DNA of 64,000 bases from Woeseiaceae bacterium. GTDB taxonomy: Bacteria > Pseudomonadota > Gammaproteobacteria > Steroidobacterales > Woeseiaceae. Below the pieces are notes generated by a model, which searched no databases, was not told where the DNA came from, and worked only from the letters and a program-made list of their open reading frames with translations. The DNA is taken from assembly GCA_024640345.1 (NCBI GenBank), contig JAHEFD010000007.1, positions 8,779-72,778 of the forward strand, in the 5' to 3' direction. Position numbers and translations under genes: made by a program. Shown piece after piece: positions 19,935 to 26,383 of the stretch (position 1 is its first letter; every line of letters begins with the position of its first letter).

Positions 19935-22900
19935 TCAGGCAGCGTCGGCCTTGGCGGGGTCATATCCCAGGTTCGGTGCCAGCCAGCGCTCGACCTCGGC
20001 AACGGTCATGCCCTGTCTTTCCGCATAGGATTCCACCTGGTCACGGGCAATCTTGCCGACAGAAAAATAGCGGGATTCCGGATGAGAGAAGTAAAAGCCA
20101 CTCACCGCAGCGGTCGGGAACATCGCGTAGGAATCGGTTAACTGCAGACCGATGGAATTCTCGACATCGAGCAATTTCCACAGCTTCCCTTTCTCGATGT
20201 GGTCCGGACACGCGGGATACCCCGGTGCCGGTCGAATTCCGCGATACTTCTCGGCGATCAGATCATTATTGCTGAGCTTCTCGTTCGGCTGGTAACCCCA
20301 GAACTCCGTCCTTGTCCGCGCGTGCATGTACTCTGCCAGAGCTTCGGCCAGCCGGTCAGCCAGCGCTTTCAACACAATGCTGCTGTAATCATCGTGTTGC
20401 GCCTCGAACCTCTGAACATGCTCATCGATGCCAATTCCTGCCGTAACGGCAAAACAACCGATGTAATCATTCACGCGGCTCTCGGCAGGCGCGACGTAAT
20501 CGGCGAGACAATGGTGAAACTGTCCGGCAGGTTTACTGCGTTGCTGCCTTAAATGACAGAGACGGGCAAGCTCCTGGCCGCGAGTATCATCGGTGAAAAT
20601 TCGAATGTCGTCGTAATCGACCGAACCGGCGTGGAAAAAGCCCAATGTTGCACGCGCCTGTAACCATTTTTCGCTGATTATCTTATCCAGCATGATAGAC
20701 GCATCGCTAAACAGCGTGCGAGCTGCATCTCCGACGATTTTGTCGCTGAGAATCGCGGGGTACTTGCCATGAAATTCCCAGGCATTGAAAAATGGCATCC
20801 AGTCGATGTAGTCCTTGAGCACGGCCAGGTCGACATCCTCGAATACACGCGTACCTGTGAACGTCGGCGCCGGGGGCGAATAGGAATGCCAGTCCGGCTG
20901 GAATCGATTATCCCGGGCCCGCTGCAACGTCAGTTGCGGAGCCAGGCGCGTGTTCCCGGCGGCATGTCGCTCTCGTCGCTTTGCATTCTCCTCGCGTGTT
21001 TTCGATACCAGTGCGGCCCTTGTGTCGTCTTCCGTAAGCGCCTGTGCAACACCGACAGAACGGGAAGCGTCCTTCACGTAAATAACGGGACCTTCGTATT
21101 TGGGCTCGATCTTCACGGCCGTGTGTGCCGGCGACGTAGTTGCTCCGCCGATGAGCAGTGGCAATTCAAAACCCAACCGCTGCATTTCGCTCGCAACGTA
21201 TACCATCTCGTCAAGTGAAGGCGTAATCAGCCCAGACAGCCCGATGATCTGCGCATTCTCCCGACGAGCGGCGTCAAGGATCTTTTCGCAGGAGACCATG
21301 ACACCCAGATCGATCACCTCGAAGTTGTTGCATTGCAGAACGACGCCAACGATGTTCTTGCCTATATCGTGAACGTCGCCTTTCACCGTTGCCATGATGA
21401 TTTTGCCGTTCGTCTCGATCGCACCACCCTTTTCTTCCTCAATAAACGGAACAAGATGACCGACCGCTTTTTTCATCACCCGAGCTGATTTAACGACCTG
21501 CGGCAAAAACATCTTTCCTTCGCCGAACAAGTCACCAACCACGTTCATTCCCGACATCAACGGACCTTCAATCACGTCCAGTGGTCGGGTAGCTGCCAGG
21601 CGTGCTTCCTCCGTGTCAGCGACGACAAATTCATCGATGCCATTGACCAGCGCGTGCTCGAGTCGCTTGTCGACCGGCTTCTCCCGCCAGCTTAAGTCCT
21701 TTCCTTTTCCTTTCTGACCAGCCGCCTGGCCTTTGTATTCTTCCGCTACATCCAGCAACCGTTCTGTCGCGTCGTCACGACGATTCAGGACAACGTCCTC
21801 AACGGCGTCCCGAAGCTTCTCAGGCAGGTCCTGATAGATCGCGAGCTGGCCTGCGTTAACGATGCCCATATCCATGCCGGCCTTTATCGCGTGATAGAGG
21901 AAAACCGAATGAATCGCTTCGCGAACAATGTTGTTGCCACGAAATGAAAAAGAAACATTGCTCACGCCGCCGCTGACCAATGCATGAGGCAACGTGTCCT
22001 TGATTCGCCTTGCAGCCTCGATGAAGTCCAGCCCGTAGCTGTTGTGCTCTTCGATGCCGGTCGCAATCGCAAAAATATTCGGATCAAAAATAATGTCAGC
22101 AGGATCGAATCCGACTTCTTCAGTCAGTATCCGGTAGCACCGCTGGCAAATCTCGACCTTGCGATCGACGTTATCCGCCTGCCCCTCTTCGTCAAACGCC
22201 ATAACGACGACAGCGGCACCGTAGTCGCGGACCAGCCGTGCCTGGCGAATAAATTGTTCCTCTCCTTCTTTCAGGCTGATCGAGTTGACGACCCCCTTGC
22301 CTTGTACGCATTGGAGCCCCGCTTCTATAACCGACCACTTCGACGAATCGATCATGACGGGTACGCGAGCAACGTCAGGTTCCGAGGCAATAAGATTCAG
22401 ATAGGTCACCATCGCCGCCTCGGAATCGAGCATGCCCTCATCCATGTTTACATCGACGATCTGTGCGCCATTCTCGACCTGTTGACGCGCAATCTGCACG
22501 GCGTCGGTATAGTTGTCAGCCTCGATCAACTTCCTGAAAATGGCTGAACCGGTGACGTTGCTGCGCTCGCCAACATTGACGAACAGGTCGCCCGGGCCGA
22601 GATTCACCGGTTCGAGCCCGGACAAACGGCAACGGATCTCAATCTCGGGAATCGCTCGTGGCACCTGGCCATCAATAACCGTCCGCAATGCACGAATGTG
22701 ATCGGGCGTCGTTCCGCAACATCCACCGACAAGATTTACCAGGCCGCTTGCAACGAATTCGCCGACAATGCCGGCCATGTGTTCAGGCGTTTCGTCATAC
22801 TCGCCGAACTCGTTTGGCAGACCGGCATTTGGATGGGCGCTGACACGAGTGTTCGCAACCCGGGAGAGCTCGGCCACATACGGGCGCATATCTTCCGCAC

Positions 22901-23657
22901 CAAGCGCACAGTTCAACCCAATCATGAACGGATCTGCGTGCCTGACCGAATTCCAGAATGCCTCCGTTGTCTGCCCGGAAAGTGTTCTTCCTGACGCATC
23001 GGTAATGGTTCCCGATATCATTACCGGCAAAGTGACACCGGTCGCTTCGAAACTGCGTTTGATCGCAAAAATTGCCGCCTTCGCATTGAGCGTATCGAAA
23101 ATCGTTTCAACCATCAGGAAGTCGACGCCTCCCTCGATCAGGGCGGTGGCAGCTTGTTCGTAAGTCCCGGCAAGTACGGCAAAAGTAATGTTCCGGTAGC
23201 CGGGATCATTGACGTCCGGTGATATCGATGCGGTTCGGTTAGCGGGGCCCAGAACACCTGCGACGAAACGGGGCGTACCGGTTTCTGCAGAATATTTGTC
23301 CGCTGCTTCACGAGCGATGCTGGCGGACGCGCTGTTGATCTCGGCTACCAGCGATTCCAGCCCATAGTCGCCCATCGATGGCGCATTCGCGTTGAATGTA
23401 TTGGTCTCAATGATGTCGGCACCGGCCTCGAGAAACTGCCGATGAATATCCTGAATGACGTGCGGCCTGGTGATCGATAACAGGTCGTTGTTACCTTTGA
23501 GGTCCGATTGCCAGTCCTTGAATCGATCGCCACGATAGTCCGCCTCGCTGAGGCCCAGCCCCTGGATCATGGTACCCATCGCGCCATCCAGCAGGAGGAT
23601 TCTTTCGTTCAGCGCTGAATTGAGCGCTTCTATTCTTTGTTCCCGTTCCATGATCAT
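19935..23657 (-). CDS. metH: cobalamin-dependent methionine synthase
   Basis: Transfers the methyl group of 5-methyltetrahydrofolate through cobalamin to homocysteine. At 1240 residues all four modules are present: homocysteine domain with zinc ligands C250, C313 and C314; pterin-binding domain ([11 protein letters not shown] onward); B12 cap and binding domains with the cobalt-coordinating H763 in DVHDIGKN; and the SAM reactivation domain with [12 protein letters not shown]. There are no breaks. It follows metF by 3 bp and is the third gene of the ArsR-methyltransferase operon. No cobalamin riboswitch was seen. Confidence 0.98.
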
Positions 23658-23660
23658 CCT

Positions 23661-24527
<867 letters not shown>

Positions 24528-24534
24528 TTAATTA

Positions 24535-25428
24535 CTAAGCCGCCGCAGTGCGATTGCCAACGGCCGTCGCGACAGACACTAGCCAGACAGGGTCTTTCTT
24601 CGGCGCAAACCGGGCCGGTGCAAGCCGAAGACCGGCGTCTTTGCTCCAGCTGGCCAGGGAGTCCTGGACGTCGGTGGACGCTCTTTTCAAGACCGATTCT
24701 AGAACAAACAGTCGTCCGCCCGGGCGCAACAGCCGCCGAGCTTCGACAAGTGCCCGTACCGGATCACGGGCATCTGCCAGTACATCGTCGATAATGATCG
24801 TATTGAATTCACTGTCTGCGAATGGCAAGCGATACATATCACCCTTTCTCAGACTGCAGTTCGGAATGCCTGCGAGCAACAGTTCGGCGCGAGCCAGTTG
24901 ACGGGCATCGGCATCGATGTCCACGCCTACCGCACGATTTGCCCGGCTGGCTAACAGCTTGAGGATAGCGCCTCTTCCACAACCGACATCAAGGAGATCA
25001 CCGATCGGGGCCGCGACCGTTAAATCGAGAATTGCCCTGTGCAGCGCGCGATGCGCAGAGTCATCAACATAGCCGTCACCAACTTCTCCAATTCGCTCGC
25101 CGCGGCCCTGGCGCAGGAGATTCCAGTCAGCCACGAAAACCGGGTCATCATCCGGTATCAATTGCAGCAACTGGTAAAGGGGTGCCGGCGCATCTTTTCG
25201 GCCGGGTACCCGGTAGAACACCCGCTTGCCGTCGCGGAACCTTACCAACAGGCCCGCGTCACAGAGCTGCTTAAGCTGCTGGGAGATCCTCGGCTGGCTC
25301 TGGCCGATCACACGGGTCAGCTCGGATACGCTGCACTCGCCCTGCAAACAAAGCGCGACCAGCCTGAGGCGCGTCGGGTCGCCCAAAGTCTTCAGGTGCA
25401 ACAGCAGTGCTTTGCTCGCTTCATTCAT
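24535..25428 (-). CDS. ArsR-type regulator fused to SAM-dependent methyltransferase domain
   Basis: A 297-residue fusion. Residues 1-80 are an ArsR winged helix with recognition helix around QPRISQQLKQL (46-56); from about 120 a class I methyltransferase fold follows, with motif I LLDVGCGRGAI (145-155), VGVDIDADA and a DDVLADARDP strand. Metal-binding cysteines of classical ArsR are not apparent. Fusions of this kind sit upstream of metF, metH or ahcY in several proteobacteria and are thought to sense SAM or S-adenosylhomocysteine; the ligand here is inference. It is first in the operon with metF and metH and is preceded by a matching palindrome, so autoregulation is likely. Confidence 0.9.
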   Translation of the reverse strand: MNEASKALLLHLKTLGDPTRLRLVALCLQGECSVSELTRVIGQSQPRISQQLKQLCDAGLLVRFRDGKRVFYRVPGRKDAPAPLYQLLQLIPDDDPVFVADWNLLRQGRGERIGEVGDGYVDDSAHRALHRAILDLTVAAPIGDLLDVGCGRGAILKLLASRANRAVGVDIDADARQLARAELLLAGIPNCSLRKGDMYRLPFADSEFNTIIIDDVLADARDPVRALVEARRLLRPGGRLFVLESVLKRASTDVQDSLASWSKDAGLRLAPARFAPKKDPVWLVSVATAVGNRTAAA

Positions 25429-25432
25429 AAAT

Positions 25433-25452
25433 ATATAAAGATCTTTTTATAT
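25433..25452. promoter_or_regulatory. palindromic operator of the met operon
   Basis: ATATAAA (25433-25439) and TTTATAT (25446-25452) are perfect inverted arms separated by 6 bp. The site begins 5 bp ahead of the regulator start codon and lies just downstream of the predicted transcription start. AT-rich palindromes of this size are typical ArsR-family targets. Confidence 0.65.
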
Positions 25453-25464
25453 TAAACGACGCAG

Positions 25465-25494
25465 ATTCTAGCATTTTGCCTGCGGAGCAGGCAA
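25465..25494 (-). promoter_or_regulatory. sigma-70 promoter of regulator-metF-metH operon
   Basis: On the minus strand TTGCCT (25494-25489) and TAGAAT (25470-25465) are separated by 18 bp; the -10 matches consensus at five of six bases. The -35 lies within a perfect hairpin TTGCCTGC-TCC-GCAGGCAA (25476-25494), which might also act as a weak stop after hslO. Transcription would begin near 25458, next to the palindrome. Confidence 0.55.
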
Positions 25495-25510: not shown

Positions 25511-26383
25511 TTAATGGAGGCGGCTTGTGCCGGTCAGGGCCTGGTCGGAAAAGACGCGGCCGACATCAATTGCGTCAAACGACCGCATGCGACCACAGTA
25601 TTCACAGGTGACTTCGACGTTGCCGTTTTCGGCAAGCGCTGCACGGGTCTCGGACTCACCGAGAAATCGCAGCACCTCCTCGACCCGGGACTGCGTGCAA
25701 CGACAATGAAAGCGGACCGGCCGGGCGTTGAACACCCTGACGTCGTCCTCGGCGAAGAGCTTGTGAAGCAGCATTGTAGTTGCACCGTCGACGAGATCGT
25801 CCGGTCGCAGCGTAGCAATCAGGAAGCCGAGGCGCCGCCAGTCGTCCTCGTTCATCGGCAGCTCTCCGGGCATCTGCTGCAGCACGATCCCGCCGCAATG
25901 CGAGGCACTCGTTGCGAGCGCCAGGTGACTCGGGATCTGTACCGACTGATCGAAGTAGTTTTCCAGGCTTGCGGCCAATGAATCGGGGCTGACATCGACG
26001 ATACCCTGGTAAGGCCGCTCCATGGCACCGGCGTCAATCGTCACCGCGCAGCGTGCGCCGGTAACAAGCTCTGCGAAGGAAGTCGATTCCGCATTGACAG
26101 TCGAGATTGCCATACCACGCAGATCCAGGCTGTCGGTGCACTGCATAACCAACATGCTCAGCGGTCCGTCGCCGGAAAATTGCAGTGTTACGGACCCGTC
26201 AAACTTGAGGCTCTGCGCAAGCAGCGAGGTTGCCGAGGCCGCGTGACCCAGCACTTCGGCAACGGGCGCTGAATATTCGTGACCCTGCAACATCCGCTGC
26301 CAGGCGCTTTCGAGTTGCACCAGTGCGCCCCGTACCGGCAGACGATCGAACACGAAAGGAAGAATCGTATCCCGGTCTGCCAT
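25511..26383 (-). CDS. hslO: redox-regulated chaperone Hsp33
   Basis: Holdase activated by oxidative unfolding. The 290-residue product carries the zinc-binding redox switch as C227-X-C229 and C260-X2-C263 near the C-terminus, with the expected about 30-residue spacing. The N-terminal body with LGHAASATSLLAQSLKFDG is typical. It overlaps the gatB stop by 1 bp, forming the last gene of the gatC-gatA-gatB-hslO run. Confidence 0.95.
   Translation of the reverse strand: MADRDTILPFVFDRLPVRGALVQLESAWQRMLQGHEYSAPVAEVLGHAASATSLLAQSLKFDGSVTLQFSGDGPLSMLVMQCTDSLDLRGMAISTVNAESTSFAELVTGARCAVTIDAGAMERPYQGIVDVSPDSLAASLENYFDQSVQIPSHLALATSASHCGGIVLQQMPGELPMNEDDWRRLGFLIATLRPDDLVDGATTMLLHKLFAEDDVRVFNARPVRFHCRCTQSRVEEVLRFLGESETRAALAENGNVEVTCEYCGRMRSFDAIDVGRVFSDQALTGTSRLH

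Follow-up and report, generated by a model that had tools for sequence, protein, structure and literature searches.

The regulator-metF-metH locus

Three genes follow one another on the minus strand of the window, the 64-kb stretch of Woeseiaceae DNA analyzed here. The first encodes a 297-aa regulator of the SahR type (24535..25428; assigned from Pfam domains, a structure model, and homologues), the second is metF, for a 288-aa methylenetetrahydrofolate reductase (23661..24527; NF006950, 423 bits against a cut-off of 382; PF02219), and the third is metH, for a 1240-aa B12-dependent methionine synthase (19935..23657; TIGR02082, 1735 bits against a cut-off of 1011). Spacing is tight, with 7 nt between the regulator and metF and 3 nt between metF and metH; hslO (25511-26383, also minus strand) is separated from the regulator ORF by an 82-bp gap. 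An earlier sequence-only reading had listed an ArsR-methyltransferase ORF, an AT-rich palindrome, promoter letters, metF, and metH, and all of them lie where it put them. The genes adjoining the regulator are metF, metH, and hslO, and no arsenic-resistance neighborhood was found there. The protein itself combines an ArsR helix-turn-helix (residues 17-61) with a class I methyltransferase domain (residues ~125-292), and its Pfam matches—HTH_5 (3.5e-11), Methyltransf_31 (2.9e-20), and Methyltransf_11 (3.5e-20)—were all over their cut-offs.

The closest named relatives among the matches listed came from Woeseiaceae MAGs (Gammaproteobacteria), at 75-78% identity. Our homologue set, the best 80 named homologues listed, spans Azospirillum, Nitrospirillum, Sneathiella, Thalassospira, Kiloniella, Inquilinus, and others and also holds Granulosicoccaceae, Porticoccaceae, and a Steroidobacter MAG. 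Across these best 80, a MetF match lay downstream of the regulator at 74 of 80 loci (within 600 nt at 73), and a MetH match came after MetF at 63. At three loci lacking MetF, the contig ends right after the regulator (L058, L087, and L104); the others are L065, L089, and L126. Many alphaproteobacterial loci carried MetH-like matches of ~30-36% identity, which may be other or split methionine synthases. The regulator was matched at E 2.8e-38 or better in 43 of the 60 nearest genomes, own genome included, a count used here because a 60/60 tally takes in any methyltransferase or ArsR match. The ArsR-like match at L005 and L221 was set aside as a separate 280-aa helix-turn-helix regulator with, by eye, no evident methyltransferase domain. 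No paper on a Woeseiaceae regulator of this type was found among the matches listed in the open-licence literature.

The operator and its conservation

The operator, ATATAAAAAGATCTTTATAT (25433..25452, minus strand), differs from the family consensus, ATATAAAGATATCTTTATAT, at 2 of 20 positions. It had been described as a 20-bp palindrome 5 bp before the start; the palindrome is real and conserved, but in its conserved register (25433-25452) it ends 4 nt before the ATG. The same site can be read as a 22-nt even palindrome, AATATAAAAAGATCTTTATATATT (25431..25452, no strand assigned), with 10 of 11 pairs and a center one base off the conserved register, a shift that results from two left-half changes in the window copy relative to the consensus. 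Even palindromes of this kind (22 nt, 10/11 pairs) occur three times in the 64-kb window, of which only this one fits the family motif. With a matrix built from 14 hand-picked sites (28 with reverse complements), from which the window operator and the metB sites discussed below were excluded, the window operator scored 33.4 versus 5.8 for the next independent site in the window.

The motif was present with ≤5 mismatches and ≤250 nt upstream at 72 of the best 80 named homologues listed, compared with 0 of 1600 letter-shuffled upstreams, which preserve letters only and not dinucleotides. Shuffles served as the control because random pieces (17/400 at ≤5 mismatches) included true operators by chance. 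At the same thresholds no site was found in 8 of the 80 upstreams (L061, L071, L081, L089, L101, L121, L124, and L126, with the L124 upstream masked by N). The gap between operator and ATG is 4 nt in 16 of 30 loci and 4-10 nt in 24 of 30, window included. A search for the motif letters in the open-licence literature found no match.

At one gammaproteobacterial homologue (L079), the operator overlaps a permuted copy, ATATCTTTATATAAAGATAT, that fits the published ATC-N10-GAT form. Judging from this overlap, a single repeat read in two phases may underlie both published operator forms.

Promoter and leader

Upstream of the operator, an extended -10 element, TGC-TAGAAT (TGCTAGAAT; 25465..25473, minus strand, with TAGAAT at 25465-25470), has a TGn at the matching place in 22 of 30 loci. 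These 30 loci are those of relatives, window included, with the -10 sought near the operator only; one assignment (L024) looks wrong, and the starts of a few rows were guessed. The gap from -10 to operator was 10-15 bp in 26 of the 30. The sequence-only reading had paired TAGAAT with TTGCCT as a promoter of 18-bp spacing. Its letters and spacing are correct (TTGCCT at 25489..25494, minus strand, 18 bp from the -10, 4 of 6 letters), and the extended -10 is conserved, but TTGCCT was rejected as an established -35: best -35 matches ranged from 2 to 5 of 6 letters across the 30 loci with no shared sequence, and the window hexamer lies within one arm of a perfect 8-bp inverted repeat, TTGCCTGC-TCC-GCAGGCAA (25476..25494, no strand assigned). 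Since no -35 is conserved and TTGCCT sits in a hairpin arm, we read the promoter as one of the extended -10 kind. The hairpin lies 16 nt past the hslO stop, is not followed by a T run when read on the minus strand, and was not seen by eye in the upstreams of relatives.

Transcription would start at ~25458, ~7 nt after the -10, which would place the operator at approximately +7 to +26. That region lies within the footprint of RNA polymerase. A bound regulator would thus be more likely to block open-complex formation or promoter escape than early elongation, the step proposed earlier; the rest of that operator logic, namely operator, extended -10, and gene order, is supported by conservation.

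Most of the regulator's leader is occupied by the operator. None of 30 regulator starts (L009-L038, last 18 nt) had a Shine-Dalgarno tetramer, and one was present before 32 of 34 distinct ahcY starts in the same genome set. From these letters, the regulator is probably translated weakly.

A methyltransferase-fold domain without three elements

The window protein yielded a structure model of high confidence (mean pLDDT, 94.1). Its methyltransferase domain best fit 1vl5, a putative methyltransferase (Z 22.4, rmsd 2.1, 158 aligned), and also resembled SAH-bound 3ofk (169 residues, Z 20.0, rmsd 3.0). Of the five letters that we take to belong to the SAM/SAH pocket, two (D147 and G151) do not vary across 63 rows, and three (G149, D170, and M198) are each present in at least 90% of them. 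Structure prediction had been proposed as a check on this pocket, and it delivered a confident model whose fold matches SAH-bound methyltransferases; nothing seen in the pocket distinguishes SAM from SAH.

The expectation that a full-length methyltransferase had been kept did not hold. By alignment, the Woeseiaceae branch is without three methyltransferase elements found in most other homologues and keeps the SAM/SAH-binding core. We compared 63 rows (alignment A2: the window plus 62 of the 80 loci, with near copies and short matches removed by hand; a further alignment, A3, has 46 rows), of which 13 are of the Woeseiaceae type, that is, the window plus 12 loci that share at least 54% identity with it and of which 6 carry a Woeseiaceae title. 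In these 13 rows the linker measures 38-44 aa, compared with 47-56 in the others, and a YF..NA..W element (loose pattern) occurs in 0 of 13, compared with 40 of 50. At motif IV, 13/13 have D(D/G)VL in place of the HQVLH found in 31/50 others. The stretch after strand 5 has 30 residues versus 41, with HAHRRLGF-like letters, in 23 of 32 comparable others; 18 of the 50 other rows stop before the lid and were not counted. Some other gammaproteobacterial rows are intermediate (e.g., DQVLY and 35 residues).

In the structure model of an Azospirillum homologue (pLDDT 94.6), the linker forms a 37-residue helix (89-125), and residues 256-261 form a second, small one; the window model has a 20-residue helix (96-115) and no counterpart of the small one. 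Agreement with 1vl5 is also closer for the Azospirillum model (Z 23.2, rmsd 1.5, 171 aligned).

The 13 Woeseiaceae-type rows form one side of a branch (SH-aLRT 100, length 0.63, alignment A2), although the group was picked by similarity and its status as a single clade is partly built in. The tree was built quickly, with SH-aLRT as its sole measure of support, and does not fix the root, whose position decides whether the three elements disappeared in this branch or arose in the others. The missing elements presumably face the methyl acceptor. Their absence together with retention of the SAM/SAH core favors ligand sensing over catalysis for the domain in Woeseiaceae.

It is accordingly quite improbable that the window protein is an active methyltransferase joined to a DNA-binding domain and signals in part through catalysis, whether on a small molecule, on a protein, or on DNA. 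Such a protein would account for the conserved SAM-binding core and for a model that fits many methyltransferase structures, 1vl5 best, and many of the other homologues look more enzyme-like, with HQVLH, a long linker, and a lid. It fits poorly with the short linker, the missing YF..NA..W, and the D(D/G)VL of the Woeseiaceae-type rows, and with a post-strand-5 stretch 11 residues shorter than in most comparable homologues.

Sites elsewhere: metB, metK, and ahcY

In the organism's own genome (3.66 Mb, 92% complete), the pattern ATATAANNANNTNNTTATAT matched with ≤1 mismatch at two places, the operon and the leader of metB (named from its sequence by eye), compared with none for the reversed control. 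The metB-leader site (C122:20408-20427) is ~315 bp upstream of metB and precedes both a promoter-like TTGACG-18-TAGACT and a SAM-I/S-box riboswitch (RF00162; C122:20221-20336, minus strand, corresponding to L217 1722-1837; 82.2 bits against a cut-off of 44.4). Among the 60 genomes of relatives, 34 gave an RF00162 match. Because the site lies upstream of the -35, an unusual place for a repressor, we regard it only as a candidate.

Scanning 60 genomes with ATATAANNANNTNNTTATAT gave 77 pattern matches versus 38 for the reversed control. Control matches fell mostly in seven genomes, six from one genus with small genomes plus G041; in the 53 genomes outside these, the counts were 48 and 14, or ~0.26 chance matches per genome. 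One extra site is thus unsurprising by number, and it is the placement at metB that is surprising. At two mismatches the own genome gave 5 matches (one strand) versus 6 for the reversed control, and because 2 of the 5 overlap each other at the operon operator, this looser scan gives no grounds for sites beyond the two.

Six of the seven metB loci of the genus are readable (L243 starts inside the gene), with best matrix hits at -284 to -338. Their scores were 19.3, 11.5, 9.6, 4.1, 9.9, and 21.9, and these were reached by 0, 6, 6, 175, 7, and 0 of 2000 block shuffles, respectively. Two sites are hence strong, three are moderate, and one is not significant. For comparison, 23 other metB-like upstreams scored at most 7.5, and one matrix hit of ≥9.5 turned up in 84.6 kb of further sequence from the genus. 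The metB site of G009 was also recovered by a blind scan. For operator-like sites in three other genomes (L218, L219, and L220), no methionine gene was recognized by eye in the ORF lists.

Upstream of the metB riboswitch in several other genera (L236, L237, L239, L240, L241, L245, and L247), we saw by eye a different, shared palindromic element of the GTATTAATGTACTAGCACATTAATAC type.

A scan for the palindrome before metK and ahcY had also been suggested. Among the matches listed, no site with ≤5 mismatches was found before either gene in the 28 readable of 37 family genomes (best, 8-11 mismatches for metK and 9-12 for ahcY), and in the own genome, where metK and ahcY form a pair, there is no operator site; the extra site there is the one before metB. 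We therefore discarded control of metK-ahcY by the same operator in Woeseiaceae. Among the 150 of 994 own-genome candidates that were scored, no SAH riboswitch for ahcY was matched, which does not amount to absence, as the control matched 0 of 14 genomes; an Rfam search of five loci gave no match either.

In another family of the order, site-like sequences ATATCAACTTATCTTTATAT and ATATCAACTTTCCTTTATAT lie ~91 nt before metK at L181 (G037) and L170 (G052), with 3 and 5 mismatches. Judged by these letters, metK control seems to differ between families of the order.

Comparison with known regulators

SahR is described as an ArsR-family, SAH-responsive regulator with a 20-bp palindromic motif (Novichkov 2014, as cited; Leyn 2014, PMC4239095). 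Its core regulon, defined by frequency (over 70% of genomes), is given as sahR, ahcY, metH, metF, and metK, with metB as an occasional target (PMC4239095). In Ensifer aridi, the sahR promoter was most active in a sahR deletion mutant, which was taken to support autoregulation, and sites were predicted at ahcY, metH, bhmT, and metK (PMC8877191).

The tested SahR proteins also carry a second domain of methyltransferase fold. The window protein has both parts, an ArsR helix-turn-helix and the C-terminal methyltransferase-fold domain seen in its homologues here, and it shares with SahR, whose motif we compared by description, a 20-bp palindromic operator and putative targets in its own gene, metF, and metH. 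Identity to the window protein is 37-43% for homologues of Azospirillum, Inquilinus, and Thalassospira, genera that we take to be Rhodospirillales, and their operators are 1-4 mismatches off ATATAAAGATATCTTTATAT. SahR is tabulated in 7 of 9 Rhodospirillales genomes (PMC4239095). Differences from SahR are that the window domain lacks the three methyltransferase elements, that the operator abuts the start codon, that metB is a candidate target, and that metK and ahcY have no site here, although both belong to the SahR core, where they are typical rather than required. Woeseiaceae are not named in Table 1 of PMC4239095. Because the metK/ahcY part of the core is absent, we call the regulator SahR-type rather than SahR.

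A second point of comparison is SamR of Xanthomonadales, described as a distant SahR homologue of Gammaproteobacteria encoded near metH, with metB and metF among its targets and an unsettled ligand (PMC4239095). In its lineage and its nearness to metH, the window regulator resembles SamR. The SamR motif differs: it is given as a 24-bp motif with the ATC-N10-GAT consensus common to SamR and gammaproteobacterial SahR (PMC4239095), a spacing that by eye is absent from the window palindrome (SamR compared by description).

Proposed mechanism and alternatives

The recurrence of the operator, the extended -10, and the regulator-metF(-metH) gene order makes autogenous control the preferred reading of the operon. 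We consider it probable that the regulator is a SahR-type autorepressor with a stripped sensor, whose regulon is the regulator-metF-metH operon plus, perhaps, metB in this genus. A dimer of the ArsR domain would bind the operator between the -10 and the start codon (~+7 to +26) and would stop RNA polymerase from starting at, or leaving, the regulator-metF-metH promoter. Its methyltransferase-fold domain would bind a compound of the methyl-transfer reaction, either product or cofactor, with SAH the likeliest and SAM less likely; sensing of one of the two is a reasonable prior by analogy with related regulators. Ligand binding would loosen the DNA contact, so that homocysteine remethylation would rise when the methyl cycle backs up. 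In Woeseiaceae the domain would act as the sensor, and the regulon would have shrunk to the operon and perhaps, in this genus, metB.

The alternative that fares best is that SAM is a co-repressor, so that ample SAM would lead the regulator to repress metF-metH, in line with the proposal made for SamR. We regard this as possible but doubtful. Without a site at metK or ahcY, the ligand need not be SAH, and the published suggestion that SamR responds to SAM was drawn from its lack of most SAM-cycle targets (PMC4239095), an argument that would apply here as well. The candidate operator at metB, in a leader with a SAM-I riboswitch, fits the same idea. Against it, the alphaproteobacterial homologues with the same type of operator fall in groups annotated as having SAH-responsive SahR (PMC4239095), and nothing seen in the pocket tells SAM from SAH.

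An arsenic or metal regulator set beside metF-metH by chance is very improbable: the match to the HTH metalloregulator subfamily NF033788 (71 bits against a cut-off of 55), a Cys27 that is invariant in 27 rows with Cys33 common in close rows, and the precedent of bifunctional ArsRM from Brevundimonas, an ArsR domain fused to a SAM-dependent methyltransferase and reported to act on arsenite and serve resistance (PMC10190100; compared by description), are outweighed by a methionine operon in place of arsenite methylation, by MetF downstream in 74 of the best 80 loci listed and in several orders, and by the fact that both own-genome sites with ≤1 mismatch lie at methionine genes.

Most of what we found under the preferred reading, a SahR-type autorepressor, would already be explained by SahR; what the sequences appear to add is the stripped sensor, the reduced regulon, and the possible link to metB. 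SAM-I riboswitches are reported to be common throughout Firmicutes and to occur in a further eight phyla (PMC3766115). A more far-reaching combination, in which a stripped pseudo-methyltransferase has no hold on metK-ahcY and has gained metB in one genus, where the protein and a SAM-I riboswitch on the same transcript jointly read SAH or the SAM/SAH ratio, is unlikely as a whole.

The results place an uncharacterized regulator of a marine-sediment lineage among regulators of the SahR kind and give it a precise predicted operator. Through the Woeseiaceae branch, enzyme-like and stripped forms of the sensor can be compared as they occur in nature, a comparison relevant to how ligand sensors arise from methyltransferase folds. 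Should the metB site prove real, a single transcript would be governed by two sensors of linked metabolites, one a protein and the other a riboswitch.
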